Shown here: in pieces, positions 6,801 to 41,203 of the stretch
How positions within the stretch are numbered: the first letter of the stretch is position 1
How the letters are laid out: each line of letters starts with the position of its first letter
Assembly: GCF_000016665.1 (NCBI RefSeq)
Contig: NC_009523.1
Coordinates: forward strand, 2,914,001-2,978,000
Source: Roseiflexus sp. RS-1
Lineage (GTDB): Bacteria; Chloroflexota; Chloroflexia; Chloroflexales; Roseiflexaceae
Direction of reading: 5' to 3'
Length of the DNA: 64,000 nt
Notes under the pieces: model-generated
The model's input: the letters and a program-made list of their open reading frames with translations, nothing else
Databases searched by the model: none
Told to the model about the DNA's origin: nothing
Translations under genes and position numbers: made by a program

Positions 6801-7952
6801 TCAATGTGCAACCAACACGTGACTCTTCCGTCCAAGCAATCCGGCAAGCGCGGTCATCTGCGGCATCAATGCGGCAAAGTTTTCGCATGTGAGCGACTGT
6901 CCGCCGTCCGAGGTGGCGCGATCCGGATCGGGATGCACTTCGATCATAACGCCATCGGCGCCGGCGGCGAGTGATGCCAGCGCAAGCGGCGGCACCAGGT
7001 ACCACTTGCCCGTGCCATGCGACGGATCGGCAATCACCGGCAGGTGACTGCAGCGTTTGGCGAGCGCCACAGCGTTCAGGTCCATCGTGTTGCGCGTTGC
7101 TGTCTCGAATGTGCGAATGCCGCGTTCGCAGAGAATGACGTTCGGGTTGCCCTGCGCAATAATGTATTCGGCGGAGAGCAGCCATTCCTCGATCGTCGCC
7201 GACATCCCGCGTTTGAGCAGCACCGGTTTTCCGCTGCGACCGGCTTCTTCCAGCAACTGAAAGTTCTGCATATTGCGCGCCCCGATCTGGAGCACATCGG
7301 CGTAGCGTGCCACCAGTTCGACATCGGTCGGCGTCATCACTTCCGTCACGATGGGCAATCCTGTTTCGGCGCGCGCCAGCGCCAGCAGTCGTAACCCTTC
7401 CTCGCCCAAACCGCGAAAGGTGTAGGGAGAGGATCGCGGTTTGAAGGCGCCGCCGCGCAGCATGTGAGCGCCCGCTTCGCGCACTGCGAACGCAGTCGCC
7501 ATAATCTGCGCTTCGCTTTCAACAGCGCATGGTCCGGCAATCACCACGAACGAACCTCCGCCAACGGCGACATCGCCAACCTGGACGATGGTATCCGGGG
7601 GGTGGAACTCACGCGCAGCCAGTTTGTACGGTCGCGTGATGCGCACTGCTTCCTGGACGCCCGGAAAGCGCTCGAGTTCTTCGCGCAACGTCGGCGGAAT
7701 CGCTGCTCCGATGACGCCAACGATGTTCCGCTCCTCACCGTAGGTGACGCTCCCCTTGAGACCGTGCTCCTGGATGCGCGTCAGGACTGCGTTCAACTCC
7801 TCTTCGGTCGCGGTGCTCCGCATGACGACGATCATGGACACATTCTCCTTTGCTAGCGGCAACAGTTGTTCGATAAACGATGAACGATGTTCAGGCGGCA
7901 GCGCCAGGCGAAGGCGCGGCCGGACGATGACATCGAGTTCTAGCGTGGTCAT
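6801..7952 (-). CDS. aroF: 3-deoxy-7-phosphoheptulonate synthase (DAHP synthase, type I-beta)
   Basis: Joins phosphoenolpyruvate and erythrose 4-phosphate in the first step of the shikimate pathway. The catalytic barrel shows [52 protein letters not shown] and DPSHGTG, with a C-terminal metal-site region. In front is a ferredoxin-like regulatory domain (about residues 40-110), the type known from Thermotoga maritima and used there for Tyr/Phe feedback. The 383-residue start at 7952 has GGAAGGAG six bases upstream. An internal ATG at 7835 (Met40) also has AAAGGAG, and it matches the usual family start (MIVV). aroH lies just upstream on the same strand but a terminator hairpin separates them. 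Confidence 0.95.
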
Positions 7953-8069: not shown

Positions 8070-8100
8070 AAAAAACAGCGGAGGAAACTCCACCGCTGTT
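8070..8100 (-). terminator. Intrinsic terminator directly after aroH, before aroF
   Basis: Reading leftward, AACAGCGG pairs with CCGCTGTT; after one mismatch GGA pairs with TCC, and six T follow (8075-8070). The hairpin begins at the base after the aroH stop codon. It would uncouple aroF from aroH, or let only part of the transcripts through. Confidence 0.7.
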
Positions 8101-8499
8101 TCATTGCCCTGATGTCTCTGCTGGCGCCTGGATCGCGCTCCGATCGGGACGCAACGTATGTGCGCCACGGATGTACACATGAACGATCTCTTCCGCCCGC
8201 CGCGTGGTATTCCAGTGGATCAGCACGCGAATGCAGCGTGGCAGACTACCGGGAACCGCCATTTCGTGCGTACAGAGCAGCGCAGCGTCGAGCCAGCCGA
8301 GTTCACGCGCGGCAACCGCCGGGAATTCCGCAGTCAGGTCGGGCGTGGTGCTGAAGATGGCGCTGGCGATGTCCTCTGGACGCACGCCGTTTGCGGCAAT
8401 GATGCGCTGCAACAGGTCACGTGTTGCTTCGAGGATCGCCTCGCGCGTGTTTTCGTCACAGGTGGTTGCGCCGCGAATGCCACGACAGACGATCGTCAT
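8101..8499 (-). CDS. aroH: Chorismate mutase, AroH type
   Basis: Converts chorismate to prephenate, the branch leading to Phe and Tyr. At 132 residues it matches the Bacillus-type trimeric mutase. Visible active-site motifs are the N-terminal RGIRGAT (Arg), DLTAEFPA (Glu), the Arg in [10 protein letters not shown], and the closing Tyr/Arg segment [18 protein letters not shown] lies about six bases before the ATG. It is the first structural gene after the aromatic attenuator (8512-8654), so its transcription should depend on charging of the aromatic tRNAs. A terminator follows its stop at once. Confidence 0.93.
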
Positions 8500-8511: not shown

Positions 8512-8553
8512 GAAAAATCAAGAAGGCGTGGAGCCTGTTGCTCCACGCCTTCT
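8512..8553 (-). terminator. Terminator (3:4 hairpin) of the aro attenuator
   Basis: Reading leftward, AGAAGGCGTGGAGC (8553-8540) pairs perfectly over 14 bp with GCTCCACGCCTTCT (8534-8521) around the loop AACAG. TGATTTTTC follows, with five T at 8516-8512. It stands between the leader peptide and aroH. Its left arm can instead pair over 13 positions (8549-8537) with 8592-8580 inside the leader coding region, the antiterminator. Confidence 0.88.
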
Positions 8554-8573
8554 GAGTTCCAGTATCCTAAACG

Positions 8574-8654
8574 TCATCCAACGCGAAGCAACCAGTCTCT
8601 TGGTGAGCTGGCAAAATACCAGAACCAGAAGTAATAGGCGCTTCGCGATTGCAT
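8574..8654 (-). CDS. Aromatic leader peptide of the aroH attenuator
   Basis: This 26-codon frame begins at an ATG (8654-8652) and ends with TGA (8576-8574). Residues 7-14 are YYFWFWYF: two Tyr, then Phe, Trp, Phe, Trp, Tyr, Phe. Another Trp follows at 21. Such a run is expected only in a tRNA-charging sensor. RNA segment 1 (CGCGAAGC, 8647-8640) overlaps codons 3-5, just before the run. Segment 2 (GCTTCGCG, 8589-8582) lies just before the stop, the layout of classical trp/phe attenuators. A weak GAGATAG ribosome site precedes the ATG. The peptide itself need have no function. Confidence 0.85.
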   Translation of the reverse strand: MQSRSAYYFWFWYFASSPRDWLLRVG

Positions 8655-8694
8655 AACCGGTGCTATCTCATTCGTCTCAGGTGTTGATGCTGCG

Positions 8695-8723
8695 ACTATA
8701 CCATACCCCGGCGAAGGTGTCAA
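8695..8723 (-). promoter_or_regulatory. Near-consensus promoter of the aro attenuator transcript
   Basis: TTGACA (8723-8718), a spacer of exactly 17 bases and TATAGT (8700-8695). Transcription would begin near 8688, about 34 bases before the leader-peptide ATG. The -35 box starts four bases past the stop of the response-regulator gene, so the aro unit has its own promoter. Confidence 0.8.
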
Positions 8724-8726
8724 CTC

Positions 8727-9317
8727 TCACGATCCAGAACCCAGCAGTTCTTCGGCTTCGATGATCGCCTGGGCAATATCTTTCATCTTGGCGCGTTTGT
8801 CGCGCGCGCGCTGCCGCAGCCGTTCGTAGGCGTCGCGCTCACTCAACCCCAGACGTTGCATCAGAATGCCTTTGGCGCGCTCGATCAATTTGCGCGCTTC
8901 GAGCGATTCTTCCAGTTCGTGCACCTGCGCCCGCAACGCCTGCAATTCGCGGAAACGCGCCAGCGCGATGTTGATTGCCGGTGATAGTTCTGCTTCGTTG
9001 ACCGGTTTGACCAGGTAGCCAAGCGCTCCAGCCTGCTCCGCTTTGCGGATGGTTTCTCTGTCGGTATACGCAGTGAGCATCAGGATGGGAGTCGGGCGCT
9101 GCTGATTGATCCGCGCCGCCGCTTCCGTCCCTTCCATTTCCGGCATGCGAATATCCATGATGATCAGATCTGGTCCAAGACGTGCCGTAAGATCAATAGC
9201 TTCGGCGCCGGTGCGTGCGATGCCGATGACATCGTAGCCAAGCCCTTTCAGTTGCTCTTCGAGCGTGAGCGCGACCAGATCGTTGTCTTCGGCAATAAGA
9301 ATGCGCGTAACTGCCAT
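8727..9317 (-). CDS. ANTAR-domain response regulator (AmiR/NasT type)
   Basis: The 196-residue protein has a receiver domain in the first 120 residues: acidic pocket AEDND, phosphorylation site in LIIMDIRMPEMEG, Thr in MLTAYTD and Lys in LVKPVNE. A coiled segment (residues about 125-145) leads to an ANTAR domain with the signature AKGILMQRLGLSERDAYERL. ANTAR proteins bind paired hairpins in RNA and prevent transcription termination. The ATG at 9317 is chosen because GGAAAGAG precedes it; the frame runs on to a GTG at 9335. No cognate histidine kinase is adjacent. Its target RNA is unknown. Confidence 0.9.
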   Translation of the reverse strand: MAVTRILIAEDNDLVALTLEEQLKGLGYDVIGIARTGAEAIDLTARLGPDLIIMDIRMPEMEGTEAAARINQQRPTPILMLTAYTDRETIRKAEQAGALGYLVKPVNEAELSPAINIALARFRELQALRAQVHELEESLEARKLIERAKGILMQRLGLSERDAYERLRQRARDKRAKMKDIAQAIIEAEELLGSGS

Positions 9318-9493
9318 AGCATCCGCTCTTTCCACTCACGTGTGGAAACGACAATGATCGTTCCAATCATATCATACTGTGTTGCTTTGTAAACCCTGCT
9401 TAATAGCCAGATTCCCACAATGACGCCCTGATAGGGTTCACCGCGCTGCCATATGCGCCCGTTCCGACCGGCGTGCATACTCTTGATCCGGCG

Positions 9494-36112: not shown

Positions 36113-37345
36113 ATGCTGTACCGTGTTGAACAACGCTGCCGCGCCAGCGGTTCGCCCAATCTGCTGCCGATCCTGTCGTTCGGCGTCACGCCGCTGGCGG
36201 ATCGGTTGCTCACGGCGGATCAACTCGGCGGCAAGGAGCCATTCGCGCCGCTGACGCTGGTGTTTTGTCCGGATTCGGCGCTGCTCCAGATCCAGGAAAC
36301 TGTTGATCCCGAAGTGCTGTTCTATGCCGAATACCCCTACTTTTCGTCGGTCTCGAAATCATTGCTGAACCATTTTGCCCGCAGCGCCCAGGCGATCATG
36401 GCGTCGCGTCCGCTGGGACCGGAGAGCCTGGTGGTTGAGGCTGCCAGCAATGACGGCTATATGCTGCGGAACTTCGTCGAACGCAACATTCCGGTGCTCG
36501 GCATCGATCCGGCGCGCGCTCCGGCGGAAGCAGCACAGAAGATCGGCATTCCCACCCTCAATACGTTCTTCACCAGAGAACTGGCGCTGCAATTGCGCAA
36601 CGAGGGCAAGGCTGCCGATGTCTTTCTGGCAAACAATGTCCTGGCGCATGTGCCCGATCTCAATGGTTTCGTGAGCGGCATCCGCATTATGCTCAAGGAT
36701 GACGGTATTGCGGTGATCGAGTGTCCGTATGTGGTCGATCTGGTCGATCACTGCGAGTTCGATACCATCTATCACCAGCATCTCTGTTACTTCTCGGTGA
36801 CGGCGCTCGACCGGTTGTTCCGCGCCAATGGTCTGTACCTCAACGACGTGGAGCGCACGCCGATCCACGGCGGATCGCTGCGCCTGTTCGTTGCGCGGCG
36901 CGAGGATGTTGGTGAGCGGGTGCGGGAGTTGCTGGCGATGGAGCGCGAGCGCGGCGTGGATCGGGTTGATTTCTATCGTTCGTTCGCCGATCGGGTGCGC
37001 ACTATTCGTGACGAACTGATGGCGCTGCTGCACGAGCTGAAGCGGCAGGGCAAACGGATCGCTGCATATGGCGCCGCCGCCAAAGCTACCACATTGCTGG
37101 CATACTGCCAGATCGACACCCGACTGGTCGATTTTGTCGCCGACCTGAACCCGTACAAGCAGGGCAAGTTCATGAGCGGCAGCCATCTGCCGATTGTCCC
37201 TCCGACGGCGCTGCTTGAGCAGCAACCGGATTATGTTCTGCTGCTGGCGTGGAACTTTGCCGACGAGATCCTGCGCCAGCAGGCGGAGTATCGGCAGCGC
37301 GGCGGTAAGTTCATCATTCCTATTCCCAATCCGATCATTGTGTAG
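36113..37345 (+). CDS. Class I SAM-dependent sugar C-methyltransferase
   Basis: The 410-residue protein follows the TylC3/NovU C-methyltransferase plan. An N-terminal zinc-binding region is followed by [16 protein letters not shown] motif [39 protein letters not shown] and a C-terminal domain with [28 protein letters not shown] and [11 protein letters not shown]. These enzymes methylate carbon 3 of 4-keto-6-deoxy sugars. In the zinc region only CRASG is evident near the start, so one Cys pair may be lost. GAGGAA precedes the ATG at 36113; an ATG at 36098 lacks a site. Confidence 0.85.
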
Positions 37346-37373
37346 CATGCTGCTTGTGTGAAAGAGGAACGCC

Positions 37374-38582
37374 ATGTCTGCCATACCCTGTCCGAGTTGC
37401 GGCGCTGTCGGAATGGAGATCTTCTACGAACTGGAGCGTGTGCCGGTGCACAGCGTACTGCTGCTCCCCACCCGCGAGGAAGCCATCGCCTATCCGCGCG
37501 GCGATATTCGCCTCGGCTTTTGCCAGGCGTGCGGGTTCATCAGCAATACAGCCTTCGATCCGTCGCTCCACGAGTATTCCGAACGCTACGAAGAAACGCA
37601 GGGGTATTCGCCGACGTTCAATGCGTTTGCGCGCCGGCTGGCAGAGCATGTGATCGAACGCTACGACCTGCACGGGAAGGACATCATTGAAATCGGGTGT
37701 GGCAAAGGTGAGTTCATCACTCTGCTGTGCGACCTGGGCGAAAATCGTGGCATCGGCATCGACCCGGCGTATGTTGCGCAGCGCAGCCTGGCGCGCCCCA
37801 GCGAGCGTGTGACGTTCATCACCGATTTCTATTCCGAAAAATACGCCCATCTGCGTGCAGATTTCGTCGTCTGCAAGATGACCCTGGAGCACATCCATCA
37901 GACGGCTGCGTTTGTGGGGATGGTTCGACGCACGCTTGCCGATCAGCCCCACACAACGGTTTTCTTCCAGATTCCAGACACAACCCGCGTGCTGGAGGAG
38001 ATCGGGTTCTGGGATATTTACTATGAGCATTGTTCCTACTTTACCCCTGGTTCGCTTGCGCGTCTCTTCCGGCAGTGCGGGTTTGATGTGATCGACCTGT
38101 GGCGCGACTACGGCGACCAGTATCTGATGATCGAGGCACAACCGGGCAGTGGCGCTGGGCGCACCTTCCCCGGTCTGGAGGATGACCTGGATCGCACAGC
38201 TGCGGGGGTTGCAACGCTGCGTCGTGAAGCGCCGCAGGTGCTGCACCGCTGGCGGTCGTACCTCAACGATCAGTACGCTGCCGGGCGACGGGTGGTGCTG
38301 TGGGGATCGGGATCGAAAGGGGTCGCGTTCCTCACCACGCTTGGCATCGAGCGTGAGATCACGTATACCGTGGACATCAATCCGCACAAGCATGGCATGT
38401 TCATGGCAGGAACCGGGCAGCAGATCGTCAGTCCGACATTTTTGCGCGAGTATCGACCAGATGTGGTTGTTGTGATGAATCCGATCTACCGCGACGAAAT
38501 CCAGCGCGATCTGGCGCGTCTGGGCGTGTCAGCGGACGTGGTGACGGTGGAGATGTTCGCCAGCGCGGTTACCGGTGCGTAA
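37374..38582 (+). CDS. Zn-finger class I SAM methyltransferase (C-methyltransferase-like)
   Basis: The 402-residue protein begins with a zinc motif, CPSCG at 6-10 and CQAC about 45 residues later. The Rossmann domain has IIEIGCGKGEFITLL, and GIGIDPAYV, VCKMTLEHI and YYEHCSYFTPGSL follow. The C-terminal domain has VVLWGSGSKGVAFLT, TVDINPHKHGMFMAGTGQQI and VVVMNPIYRDEI. It is a clear paralogue of the gene at 43477, which shares every motif. It probably acts on a nucleotide-linked sugar. AGAGGAAC precedes the ATG. Confidence 0.83.
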   Translation: MSAIPCPSCGAVGMEIFYELERVPVHSVLLLPTREEAIAYPRGDIRLGFCQACGFISNTAFDPSLHEYSERYEETQGYSPTFNAFARRLAEHVIERYDLHGKDIIEIGCGKGEFITLLCDLGENRGIGIDPAYVAQRSLARPSERVTFITDFYSEKYAHLRADFVVCKMTLEHIHQTAAFVGMVRRTLADQPHTTVFFQIPDTTRVLEEIGFWDIYYEHCSYFTPGSLARLFRQCGFDVIDLWRDYGDQYLMIEAQPGSGAGRTFPGLEDDLDRTAAGVATLRREAPQVLHRWRSYLNDQYAAGRRVVLWGSGSKGVAFLTTLGIEREITYTVDINPHKHGMFMAGTGQQIVSPTFLREYRPDVVVVMNPIYRDEIQRDLARLGVSADVVTVEMFASAVTGA

Positions 38583-38593
38583 TGGTCTTTGAA

Positions 38594-38685
38594 AAAATAA
38601 TCCGGTATAGCCCGCGCAGGCGGGCTTCGCCTCGCCTGGCCGAGGGCTTCAGCCCCACGGCTAGCGCGGTATACCGGATTTATTT
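38594..38685. repeat. REP-like palindromic element with nested hairpin
   Basis: Outer arms AATCCGGTATA (38599-38609) and TATACCGGATT (38670-38680) are inverted repeats. Inside are a small hairpin GCCCGC-GCAG-GCGGGC and the stretch GAGGGCTTCAGCCC. It looks like a dispersed bacterial palindromic repeat. It may also act as a terminator for the methyltransferase operon, though it has no T-run. Copies elsewhere in the genome cannot be checked here. Confidence 0.55.
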
Positions 38686-38770
38686 CTCAATCTCCATAAT
38701 GCTGCCGGTTGTCGGAGTATCGGACGTGGAACTACGCTGACGTCCGCGTCAGCGCATGAGGTGCACTACT

Positions 38771-41203
38771 ATGCCGATCCGTTATCTGCTTGCAATCATC
38801 CTTGTGCTTCTGCCAGGAGCGCTGGCAGCTTCCGCCGATCCATCGTTGCGTATCGAGAACATCCAGGTCACGCTGAGCAATGGCAGCGCCACCGTCCGCT
38901 GGACAACCAACCACTTTGCCGGCGGCGCTGTTTTCTACGGTCCTGCCGATGGCGCCTGGACAGAAACGGCGCCTTCCAGCGGCGATGGGTTCGCCCATAC
39001 CGCCGTGCTGCTCGACCTGGCGCCTGCCACAACCTACCGGTTCTGGATCACCGCCTACCGCGCCGACGGAACGAATGCCTTCTCCGCGCCGCAGGTCTTC
39101 ACGACAGCGGCAGCAACTGCCACGCCAACACCGTCTATCGGCGCGCCCGCATCGGTGATAACACCGGCATCGGGTTCGCTCGTGTCCGACGACTTCAACC
39201 GCACCGGCGGTCTCGGCGCCTGGACGTTCGTCAACCCGCGCAACGACGCCAGTTATGCGTTCACCGGAACCGATATTCGGCTCATCGTTCCCGATGGTCC
39301 GCCGCATGATCCATGGAATGCTGGCAACACGGCGGTGCGCTTGCTGCAAACGACAGCAGACGTCGACTTCGATGTCATCGCAAAGTTTAACTCGCGGGTC
39401 AGCGGGCGTATTGCGATGCAGGGGTTGATTGCGCAGGCGGACGACAACAACTACGTGCGCTTCGATATTTCGAGCAACCGCACCAGCGCAGGGGTCGAGC
39501 AGGTGCAGCTGTTCGTCGGACGGATCACCAGCGGGAGCGGAACGCAGCTCAAATCCAGCTCGCTGACCAACCCCGGTCATCCGACCTGGTTGCGCATAAC
39601 GCGTAGCGGCGCGAACTGGCAGTTTCACTACTCGTTCGACGGGACGAACTGGACGACATTCCACACCGAAGCCATTGCGCTGACAGTGACCAGCGTGGGC
39701 GTGTTCGCGGGGAATGCGGATCCAACCAACCGCTACGCGCAGCCGTTCACTGCCGCAATCGATTATTTCCACGTTGCAAGCGCCCCGCTCGCTGATGATC
39801 CGCTGTCGTTCACCGATGTCACCCCGCCGTTGCTCGCCATGCCGCCGCATACTGTCAGTGGAACCACATTTGCCGTGCGGGGTTTTACCGACGAACCGAC
39901 GACGGCGCAGTTGACCTACGCCTCGCGTACCGCGTCGGGCGGGACGCTGAGCAGTCCGTTGAGTCAGTCGCACAGTTTCACCATACCCGGCTTGCAACCG
40001 GCGACGACCTACCATTATACCCTCACCGTCACCGATGTCGCCGGGAATCAACGGCGCGCAACCGGCGTGTTCCGCGTCCTGCCGACGGCGGTGGGGAGCA
40101 ACCCGGTGATCGACGTATGGGGCGGCGATACTCAGACCTTCGGAGCGCGCGGCGCGCCGCAGCGCTGGATCAATGTGATGGGAATGGTGAGCGACAGTGA
40201 TGGGTTCGACACCACATTCAGCAATTTCAACACACCGGCCTGGCCCCTGCGCTATCGCCTGAACGGGGGCGCTGATCGGTCATTGATGCCAGGACCAGGG
40301 TCCTATCCTGAATCGCAGCGGAACTGGCGCAGAGTGTATACTGCGGGGGAGTTCAATATCGAGATCGACCGGAACGAACTGACGCCGGGCGCGAATACCC
40401 TGGAGATCACGGCGGTCGATCGGCTTGGAAACACCAGTACCCGGACAGTAACGCTGAATTATGTGGCAGGAGCGACCTGGCCGCTTCCCTATGCCGTTGA
40501 CTGGCAAACCACAGAGCAGGTCAGCGACGCAGCTCAGCCGGTCGATGGGTTGTGGGCGTTAGAAGCGGACAGCGTGCGCCCGGTGTGGACCGGCTACGAC
40601 CGGTTGCTGGCAATCGGGGATGTCACGTGGCAGAACTACGAAGTGACTGTGCCGGTCACCATTCATGAGATCGATATGTACCGCGGACAGCGACCGAACA
40701 GCGGCGGACCGGGAGTCGGGCTGCTGTTGCGCTGGCAGGGGCACTGGGACGCGCCACCCGCTACGGAAACACAGCCGCGCTGGGTGTACTATCCAATGGG
40801 GGCGCTGGGGTGGTACCGCCTGGATCGCTTTCCGGACAGCAGTTCATCGCAGCGCATATTTCACCTGCACCTCGACACCGGCGCAACAACGGTATTTGCA
40901 CGCGATCTGACCGCCATGCGGTTGACGATTGGCGAAACGTACATCTTCAAAATGCGGGTACAGACCGATACTGGCGGCGCTCACCGGTACTGGTTGAAGG
41001 TGTGGCCCGCAGGCGGAACGGAACCGGTCGGATGGACGGTGGCAGGAACGGCGCCAGCGGGCGATCAACCGCTGAGTCAGGGATCATTGCTGCTGGTGGC
41101 GCACCACGTAGACGCAAGTTTTGGCGACATCACCGTGCAACCATCGCTGGACACAGGCGAACTTCAGCAGCGTATCTGGCTTCCATTGGTCACGCGACCA
41201 TGA
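38771..41203 (+). CDS. Large secreted protein with Fn3 and laminin-G-like domains and LPL tail
   Basis: The 810-residue protein starts with a signal peptide (IRYLLAIILVLLPGALAASA, cut after the last Ala). An Fn3-like domain at about 20-115 is followed by a Thr/Pro linker, then a concanavalin-like domain of DUF1349 type at about 145-340 (DDFNRTGGLGAWTF, FDVIAKFNSRVSG, YVRFDISSNRT, YSFDGTNWTTFHTE). A second Fn3-like region at about 365-450, a bacterial Ig-like part and another jelly-roll of about 210 residues follow. The protein ends IWLPLVTRP. Probably binds or processes surface polysaccharide. GAGGTG precedes the ATG at 38771. Confidence 0.72.
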   Translation: MPIRYLLAIILVLLPGALAASADPSLRIENIQVTLSNGSATVRWTTNHFAGGAVFYGPADGAWTETAPSSGDGFAHTAVLLDLAPATTYRFWITAYRADGTNAFSAPQVFTTAAATATPTPSIGAPASVITPASGSLVSDDFNRTGGLGAWTFVNPRNDASYAFTGTDIRLIVPDGPPHDPWNAGNTAVRLLQTTADVDFDVIAKFNSRVSGRIAMQGLIAQADDNNYVRFDISSNRTSAGVEQVQLFVGRITSGSGTQLKSSSLTNPGHPTWLRITRSGANWQFHYSFDGTNWTTFHTEAIALTVTSVGVFAGNADPTNRYAQPFTAAIDYFHVASAPLADDPLSFTDVTPPLLAMPPHTVSGTTFAVRGFTDEPTTAQLTYASRTASGGTLSSPLSQSHSFTIPGLQPATTYHYTLTVTDVAGNQRRATGVFRVLPTAVGSNPVIDVWGGDTQTFGARGAPQRWINVMGMVSDSDGFDTTFSNFNTPAWPLRYRLNGGADRSLMPGPGSYPESQRNWRRVYTAGEFNIEIDRNELTPGANTLEITAVDRLGNTSTRTVTLNYVAGATWPLPYAVDWQTTEQVSDAAQPVDGLWALEADSVRPVWTGYDRLLAIGDVTWQNYEVTVPVTIHEIDMYRGQRPNSGGPGVGLLLRWQGHWDAPPATETQPRWVYYPMGALGWYRLDRFPDSSSSQRIFHLHLDTGATTVFARDLTAMRLTIGETYIFKMRVQTDTGGAHRYWLKVWPAGGTEPVGWTVAGTAPAGDQPLSQGSLLLVAHHVDASFGDITVQPSLDTGELQQRIWLPLVTRP

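Follow-up and report, generated by a model that had tools for sequence, protein, structure and literature searches.

Several transcription attenuators carry leader peptides that respond to more than one amino acid, for instance thrL (Thr, Ile), ilvL (Ile, Leu, Val) and ivbL (Val, Leu), so that the view of an earlier note on the present DNA that known leaders sense a single amino acid is wrong for thrL and ilvL at least. The putative aroH leader of Roseiflexus sp. RS-1 described here resembles these three in bringing together codons for several end products in one leader, but they belong to other pathways and other phyla. The pheL/pheA and trpL/trpEDCBA systems of E. coli have in common with it a promoter, an ORF with control codons, an antiterminator that competes with a terminator and a ribosome that blocks segment 2 when it stands at the stop codon. 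They differ from it in sequence (no Rfam match was obtained, Trp_leader RF00513 being one of the models) and in that the aromatic codons are mixed here, while the present design lacks a conserved segment 1, and in loci that have one it is found on the 5' side of the control codons.

In C. glutamicum, an aroR leader is reportedly located upstream of aroF (Neshat et al. 2014). It is comparable to the Roseiflexus leader by its mixed Phe/Tyr leader peptide, by ribosome stalling, which is predicted here, and by its position before an entry enzyme of aromatic synthesis. However, it is actinobacterial, it controls an aroF operon and not aroH, it contains 3 aromatic residues versus 5-8, it lacks Trp and it responds to Phe only. 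Indeed, for the AroR leader (Phe-Tyr-Phe) before aroF, a response was reported to Phe but none to Tyr (PMC11802643; PMC4046766), which calls for caution in deducing sensing from codon content. In Acholeplasma, the uORFC-13-1 motif consists of a Phe uORF directly before a terminator ahead of aroF (PMC8632094). An aromatic-codon uORF and a terminator before a DAHP synthase gene are shared features, but the motif is restricted to Acholeplasma and to Phe and has another RNA structure. No aro leader from Chloroflexota was found in the open-access literature, and to this extent the claim that none had been described in the phylum stands. The aroH attenuator is conserved, belongs to a well-known class of regulators and is apparently previously undescribed. 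It would extend leader-peptide attenuation to the aromatic synthesis of Chloroflexota, a deep phylum of which little regulation is known.

The window, that is the whole stretch of 64,000 nucleotides of Roseiflexus sp. RS-1 that was analysed, contains the following features. The promoter, the 26-codon ORF and the pairings 1:2, 2:3 and 3:4 that the earlier note had reported on the minus strand between 8723 and 8521 were each found in place.

8695..8723, minus strand: sigma-70-like promoter, TTGACA-17-TATAGT, with extended -10 (TGGTATAGT), by sequence match
8574..8654, minus strand: leader ORF of 26 codons plus stop, with YYFWFWYF as codons 7-14, by ORF translation
8640..8647, minus strand: segment 1 (CGCGAAGC), able to pair with segment 2, by complementarity
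8580..8592, minus strand: segment 2, 5' arm of the antiterminator, overlapping leader codons 21-25 (W-L-L-R-V)
8537..8549, minus strand: segment 3, common to the antiterminator (2:3) and the terminator (3:4)
8521..8553, minus strand: intrinsic terminator hairpin 3:4, 14 bp with a 5-nt loop, then TGATTTTT
8101..8499, minus strand: aroH, monofunctional AroH-type chorismate mutase, the gene proposed to be regulated (TIGR01796, 135.6 bits; PF07736)
8074..8097, minus strand: terminator-like hairpin directly 3' of the aroH stop, between aroH and aroF, seen in Roseiflexus genomes
6801..7952, minus strand: aroF, DAHP synthase, 149 nt downstream of aroH

The promoter (8723-8695) matches 11 of the 12 consensus positions and a TG precedes its -10 element. 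As expected of an attenuator, a short ORF rich in codons for the end products is located upstream of a biosynthetic gene and an intrinsic terminator separates it from aroH. This ORF (8654-8574) encodes the peptide MQSRSAYYFWFWYFASSPRDWLLRVG and ends with a stop codon. No clear Shine-Dalgarno sequence precedes position 8654 in Roseiflexus (CACCGGTT-ATG); AGG-type sites are present in the leaders of many relatives. The run of eight aromatic codons occurs only once in the genome, as determined by a pattern search with TDB x8 over 5,801,598 bases in a single contig, and the sole other match to this pattern includes Leu, stop and Cys codons. Segment 1 is situated inside leader codons 3-5, 5' of the aromatic run, and its bases (8647-8640) are complementary to GCTTCGCG (8589-8582). 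The 2:3 helix comprises 13 pairs (8592-8580 with 8549-8537), and the TTTTT run that follows the 3:4 stem starts past a TGA, 3 nt downstream. The fold of the leader RNA reached z = -6.0 against dinucleotide shuffles, none of 200 being as good. In this window, the 2:3 pairing was better than all of 100 shuffles and the 1:2 pairing was equalled by 4 of 100.

AroH is present in 75 of the 82 genomes of the order, and 70 aroH loci (L002-L071) were examined. An aromatic leader ORF, a terminator and a predicted 2:3 pairing were found together at 66 of them, and a terminator-like hairpin between leader and aroH likewise at 66 of the 70. The exceptions are L037, in which the 5' arm of the terminator is missing, L052, which has a leader and a T run that is weak by the threshold applied, and L049 and L055 from one genus (g3), which are without leader. 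In the latter two, aroH sits within a frame of about 310 codons. The leader peptides differ widely among the 66 loci, yet every one of them contains a tight Phe/Tyr run. Segment 2 is kept as RNA and not as peptide: its bases GGTTGCTTCGCGTT are read in different frames, giving WLLRV in most loci, GCFALY in L041 and LVASR in L009. In addition, 54 of the 66 loci have a promoter-like TTGA[CA]...T[AG][TC]ANT pair before the leader, although a few of these matches are misplaced.

The pairings themselves bear the marks of coevolution. A 2:3 helix was predicted in all 66 loci, and for 51 of them no more than 5 of 100 shuffles did as well. Its mean energy was -22.2 with native partners versus -18.7 (sd 0.36) with permuted ones, swapping of partners among genomes costing 3.5 kcal/mol on average, and 0 of 5000 permutations were as good. 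In an alignment of 44 sequences, 2:3 was paired in 92% of cells versus 38-56% in slid controls, and a U-A to C-G swap was observed in 11 sequences. In the same alignment, two-sided (compensatory) changes affected 8 of the 14 pairs of the 3:4 stem, in 67 cells versus 21.8 when shuffled; the relatedness of the sequences weighs on the shuffle counts, yet the slid controls for 3:4 also dropped to 32-68%. Where segment 3 varies between A and G, segment 2 has U (U-A or U-G) and segment 4 has U or C, a pattern indicating that segment 3 must fit both partners. This double pairing provides an alignment rich enough to be of use for a model of the Rfam type. An exclusive antiterminator that uses the 5' arm of the terminator is thus maintained by selection. 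The leader frame and the covarying arms that had been sought upstream of orthologous aroH genes are both there (66 of 70 loci, with covariation in 3:4). With 2:3 coevolved and 3:4 covarying, comparative support for the attenuator is strong.

Two other explanations bear on these data. Since terminators between two genes are common, the hairpin might be an ordinary intrinsic terminator serving the upstream gene, next to an aromatic ORF that arose by chance and without any regulation. This is contradicted by the comparative data, as it accounts neither for the promoter before the leader and the unique run nor for the conservation in 66 of 70 loci, the coevolved 2:3 helix and the constant spacing, and it hardly deserves credence. 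T-box control is often found at amino acid biosynthesis genes of Firmicutes, and a T-box binding uncharged tRNA or a metabolite-binding riboswitch could be envisaged here. Nevertheless, an Rfam search of the leader at gathering and permissive thresholds gave no match, neither to Trp_leader and other models nor to T-box, and the conserved structure is confined to 2:3/3:4 and the aromatic codons. A riboswitch of either type is therefore extremely improbable.

The position of the ribosome was considered with a footprint model in which its 3' edge lies 16 nt past the first base of the P-site codon. In this window, 2:3 is the best fold during emergence of segment 4 when the A site is at codons 2-18, and from codon 19 onward segment 2 is too covered for 2:3 to form. 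Trp21, which lies within segment 2, would for this reason be unable to release the terminator. Across the 66 loci, a ribosome modelled as stalled on the first aromatic codon lets 2:3 form in 63 and one stalled on the last in all 66, whereas a ribosome at the stop codon blocks it in 65. Mostly 15-17 nt separate the aromatic run from segment 2, and mostly 19-21 nt lie between segment 2 and the stop, a spacing that frees segment 2 upon stalling at the control codons and covers it at the stop. Both predictions of the earlier note on this point, that stalling at the aromatic run leaves segment 2 free for segment 3 and that a ribosome at the stop covers segment 2 and permits termination, agree with the model. 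In full-length equilibrium folds of this window the terminator is favoured at every ribosome position, which implies that antitermination must depend on kinetics, as it does in other attenuators.

From the elements, their conservation, their coevolution and their geometry, as read from the sequence and its comparison, we infer that aroH is very probably controlled by a ribosome-mediated transcription attenuator, with translation, termination, stalling and the effective amino acids being predictions. RNA polymerase would start near 8688 and a ribosome would translate the 26-codon leader. When charged aromatic tRNAs are ample, the ribosome would reach the stop codon and its footprint would hide segment 2, whereupon segment 3 would pair with segment 4 and transcription would stop at about 8515. 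Under scarcity of charged tRNA-Phe or tRNA-Tyr, and in Roseiflexus possibly of tRNA-Trp, the ribosome would stall at codons 7-14 and leave segment 2 free; 2:3 would then form ahead of the synthesis of segment 4 and the polymerase would continue into aroH.

In Roseiflexus, segment 1 would also sequester segment 2 if the leader is not translated. This segment is conserved in the genus Roseiflexus only, and the data do not support it as a general part of the device, as an upstream pairing with segment 2 exceeds shuffles in only 16 of the 66 loci. When the untranslated leaders of 52 loci were folded, 2:3 won in 35, and upstream sequestration was above 0.5 in 6. It had also been proposed that segment 1 is covered when the ribosome stalls at the aromatic run; this is right for stalls at codons 7-9 and partly for codons 10-11, but not for codons 12-14. 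Attenuators of the trpL/pheL type have a 1:2 anti-antiterminator or pause hairpin, with segment 1 at the control codons, which their mechanism does not strictly require. The present 1:2 pairing looks like a Roseiflexus addition that would keep untranslated leaders off.

Which amino acids the attenuator senses is a separate matter. Phe and Tyr codons occur in all 66 runs and Trp codons in 14, namely those of the five Roseiflexus and of L007, L028, L041, L044, L045, L046, L050, L056 and L062. A working attenuator that senses only Phe and/or Tyr, with the Trp codons of Roseiflexus as tolerated aromatic substitutions devoid of regulatory role, is about as probable as its opposite. This distribution of codons argues for it, and so does the AroR leader of C. 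glutamicum, which carries Phe-Tyr-Phe but is insensitive to Tyr and responds to Phe (PMC11802643). Furthermore, chorismate mutase supplies Phe and Tyr but not Trp, and a terminator-like hairpin splits aroH from aroF in Roseiflexus. On the contrary, Trp codons 10 and 12 are both retained in 5 of 5 Roseiflexus genomes, runs with two Trp are also found in L007 and L041, and stalls at codons 10 and 12 give 2:3 in the footprint model like the others. That Phe, Tyr and Trp would all be sensed is plausible. It is quite possible, if tentative, that the leader is a composite OR-sensor, in which lack of either Phe, Tyr or Trp releases aroH without a general 1:2 hairpin, an ancient Phe/Tyr attenuator of Chloroflexota having acquired Trp codons in several lineages. 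Because chorismate mutase takes chorismate away from Trp and a hairpin follows aroH, control by Trp would be puzzling unless the polymerase reads into aroF. The natural series of Phe/Tyr and Phe/Tyr/Trp runs may be informative on how codon identity and position set sensing.

The product of aroH is 95% identical to that of its nearest named relative, a Roseiflexus MAG. The aroH-aroF pair, with aroF second, is kept in this order at most loci of the taxonomic order. In Roseiflexus, the hairpin at 8097-8074 would restrict read-through into aroF and largely confine attenuation to chorismate mutase; in relatives without an intergenic terminator, the attenuator would control aroF too. A promoter-like pair, TTAAGA-17-TATTCT, is located before aroF.

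Directly upstream of the leader, at 8727-9335 on the minus strand, lies a gene for a response regulator with an ANTAR RNA-binding domain (PF03861, 73 bits), and 31 of the 70 loci of the order likewise show ANTAR homology upstream of aroH. Such a protein adjoining the leader could act as antiterminator on this terminator, the leader peptide being secondary. However, hairpins with the AxxGxx hexaloop, the known target of ANTAR, are not conserved (16 of 66 loci, usually one and at scattered positions), tandem hairpins of this type overlapping the terminator, as in an ANTAR-regulated leader, are not in evidence, and the aromatic run and the ribosome geometry would be left unexplained. This explanation is most unlikely in comparison with the attenuator operated by the ribosome.

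Elsewhere in the genome, a second DAHP-synthase-family gene is present at 3470431-3471315, and no further aromatic leader was found in the stretches examined upstream of this gene and of pheA, trpE and tyrA. A search of the plasmid collection gave no match. Rfam also matched CRISPR-DR28 (RF01356) at window positions 38608-38631; no array of direct repeats (22 nt or longer) was found around it within 37000-40500, so that a lone or chance match is probable.

Outside the order, no aromatic leader was found before aroH in the Desulfobacterota and Planctomycetota relatives inspected, save for one doubtful frame in L211. Leaders of like design, with an aromatic ORF, a terminator and in many cases a predicted 2:3 helix, precede aroH in other classes of Chloroflexota. 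In several of them (L106, L119, L131 and L221), 2:3 is no better than shuffles, and there the leader and the terminator carry the claim. Such leaders were observed in the Ardenticatenia-labelled L170, L172, L182 and L215, in L196 of the Thermoflexales and in the Anaerolineae-labelled L212 and L222, and further Chloroflexota loci of this kind include L076, L081, L100 and L122.
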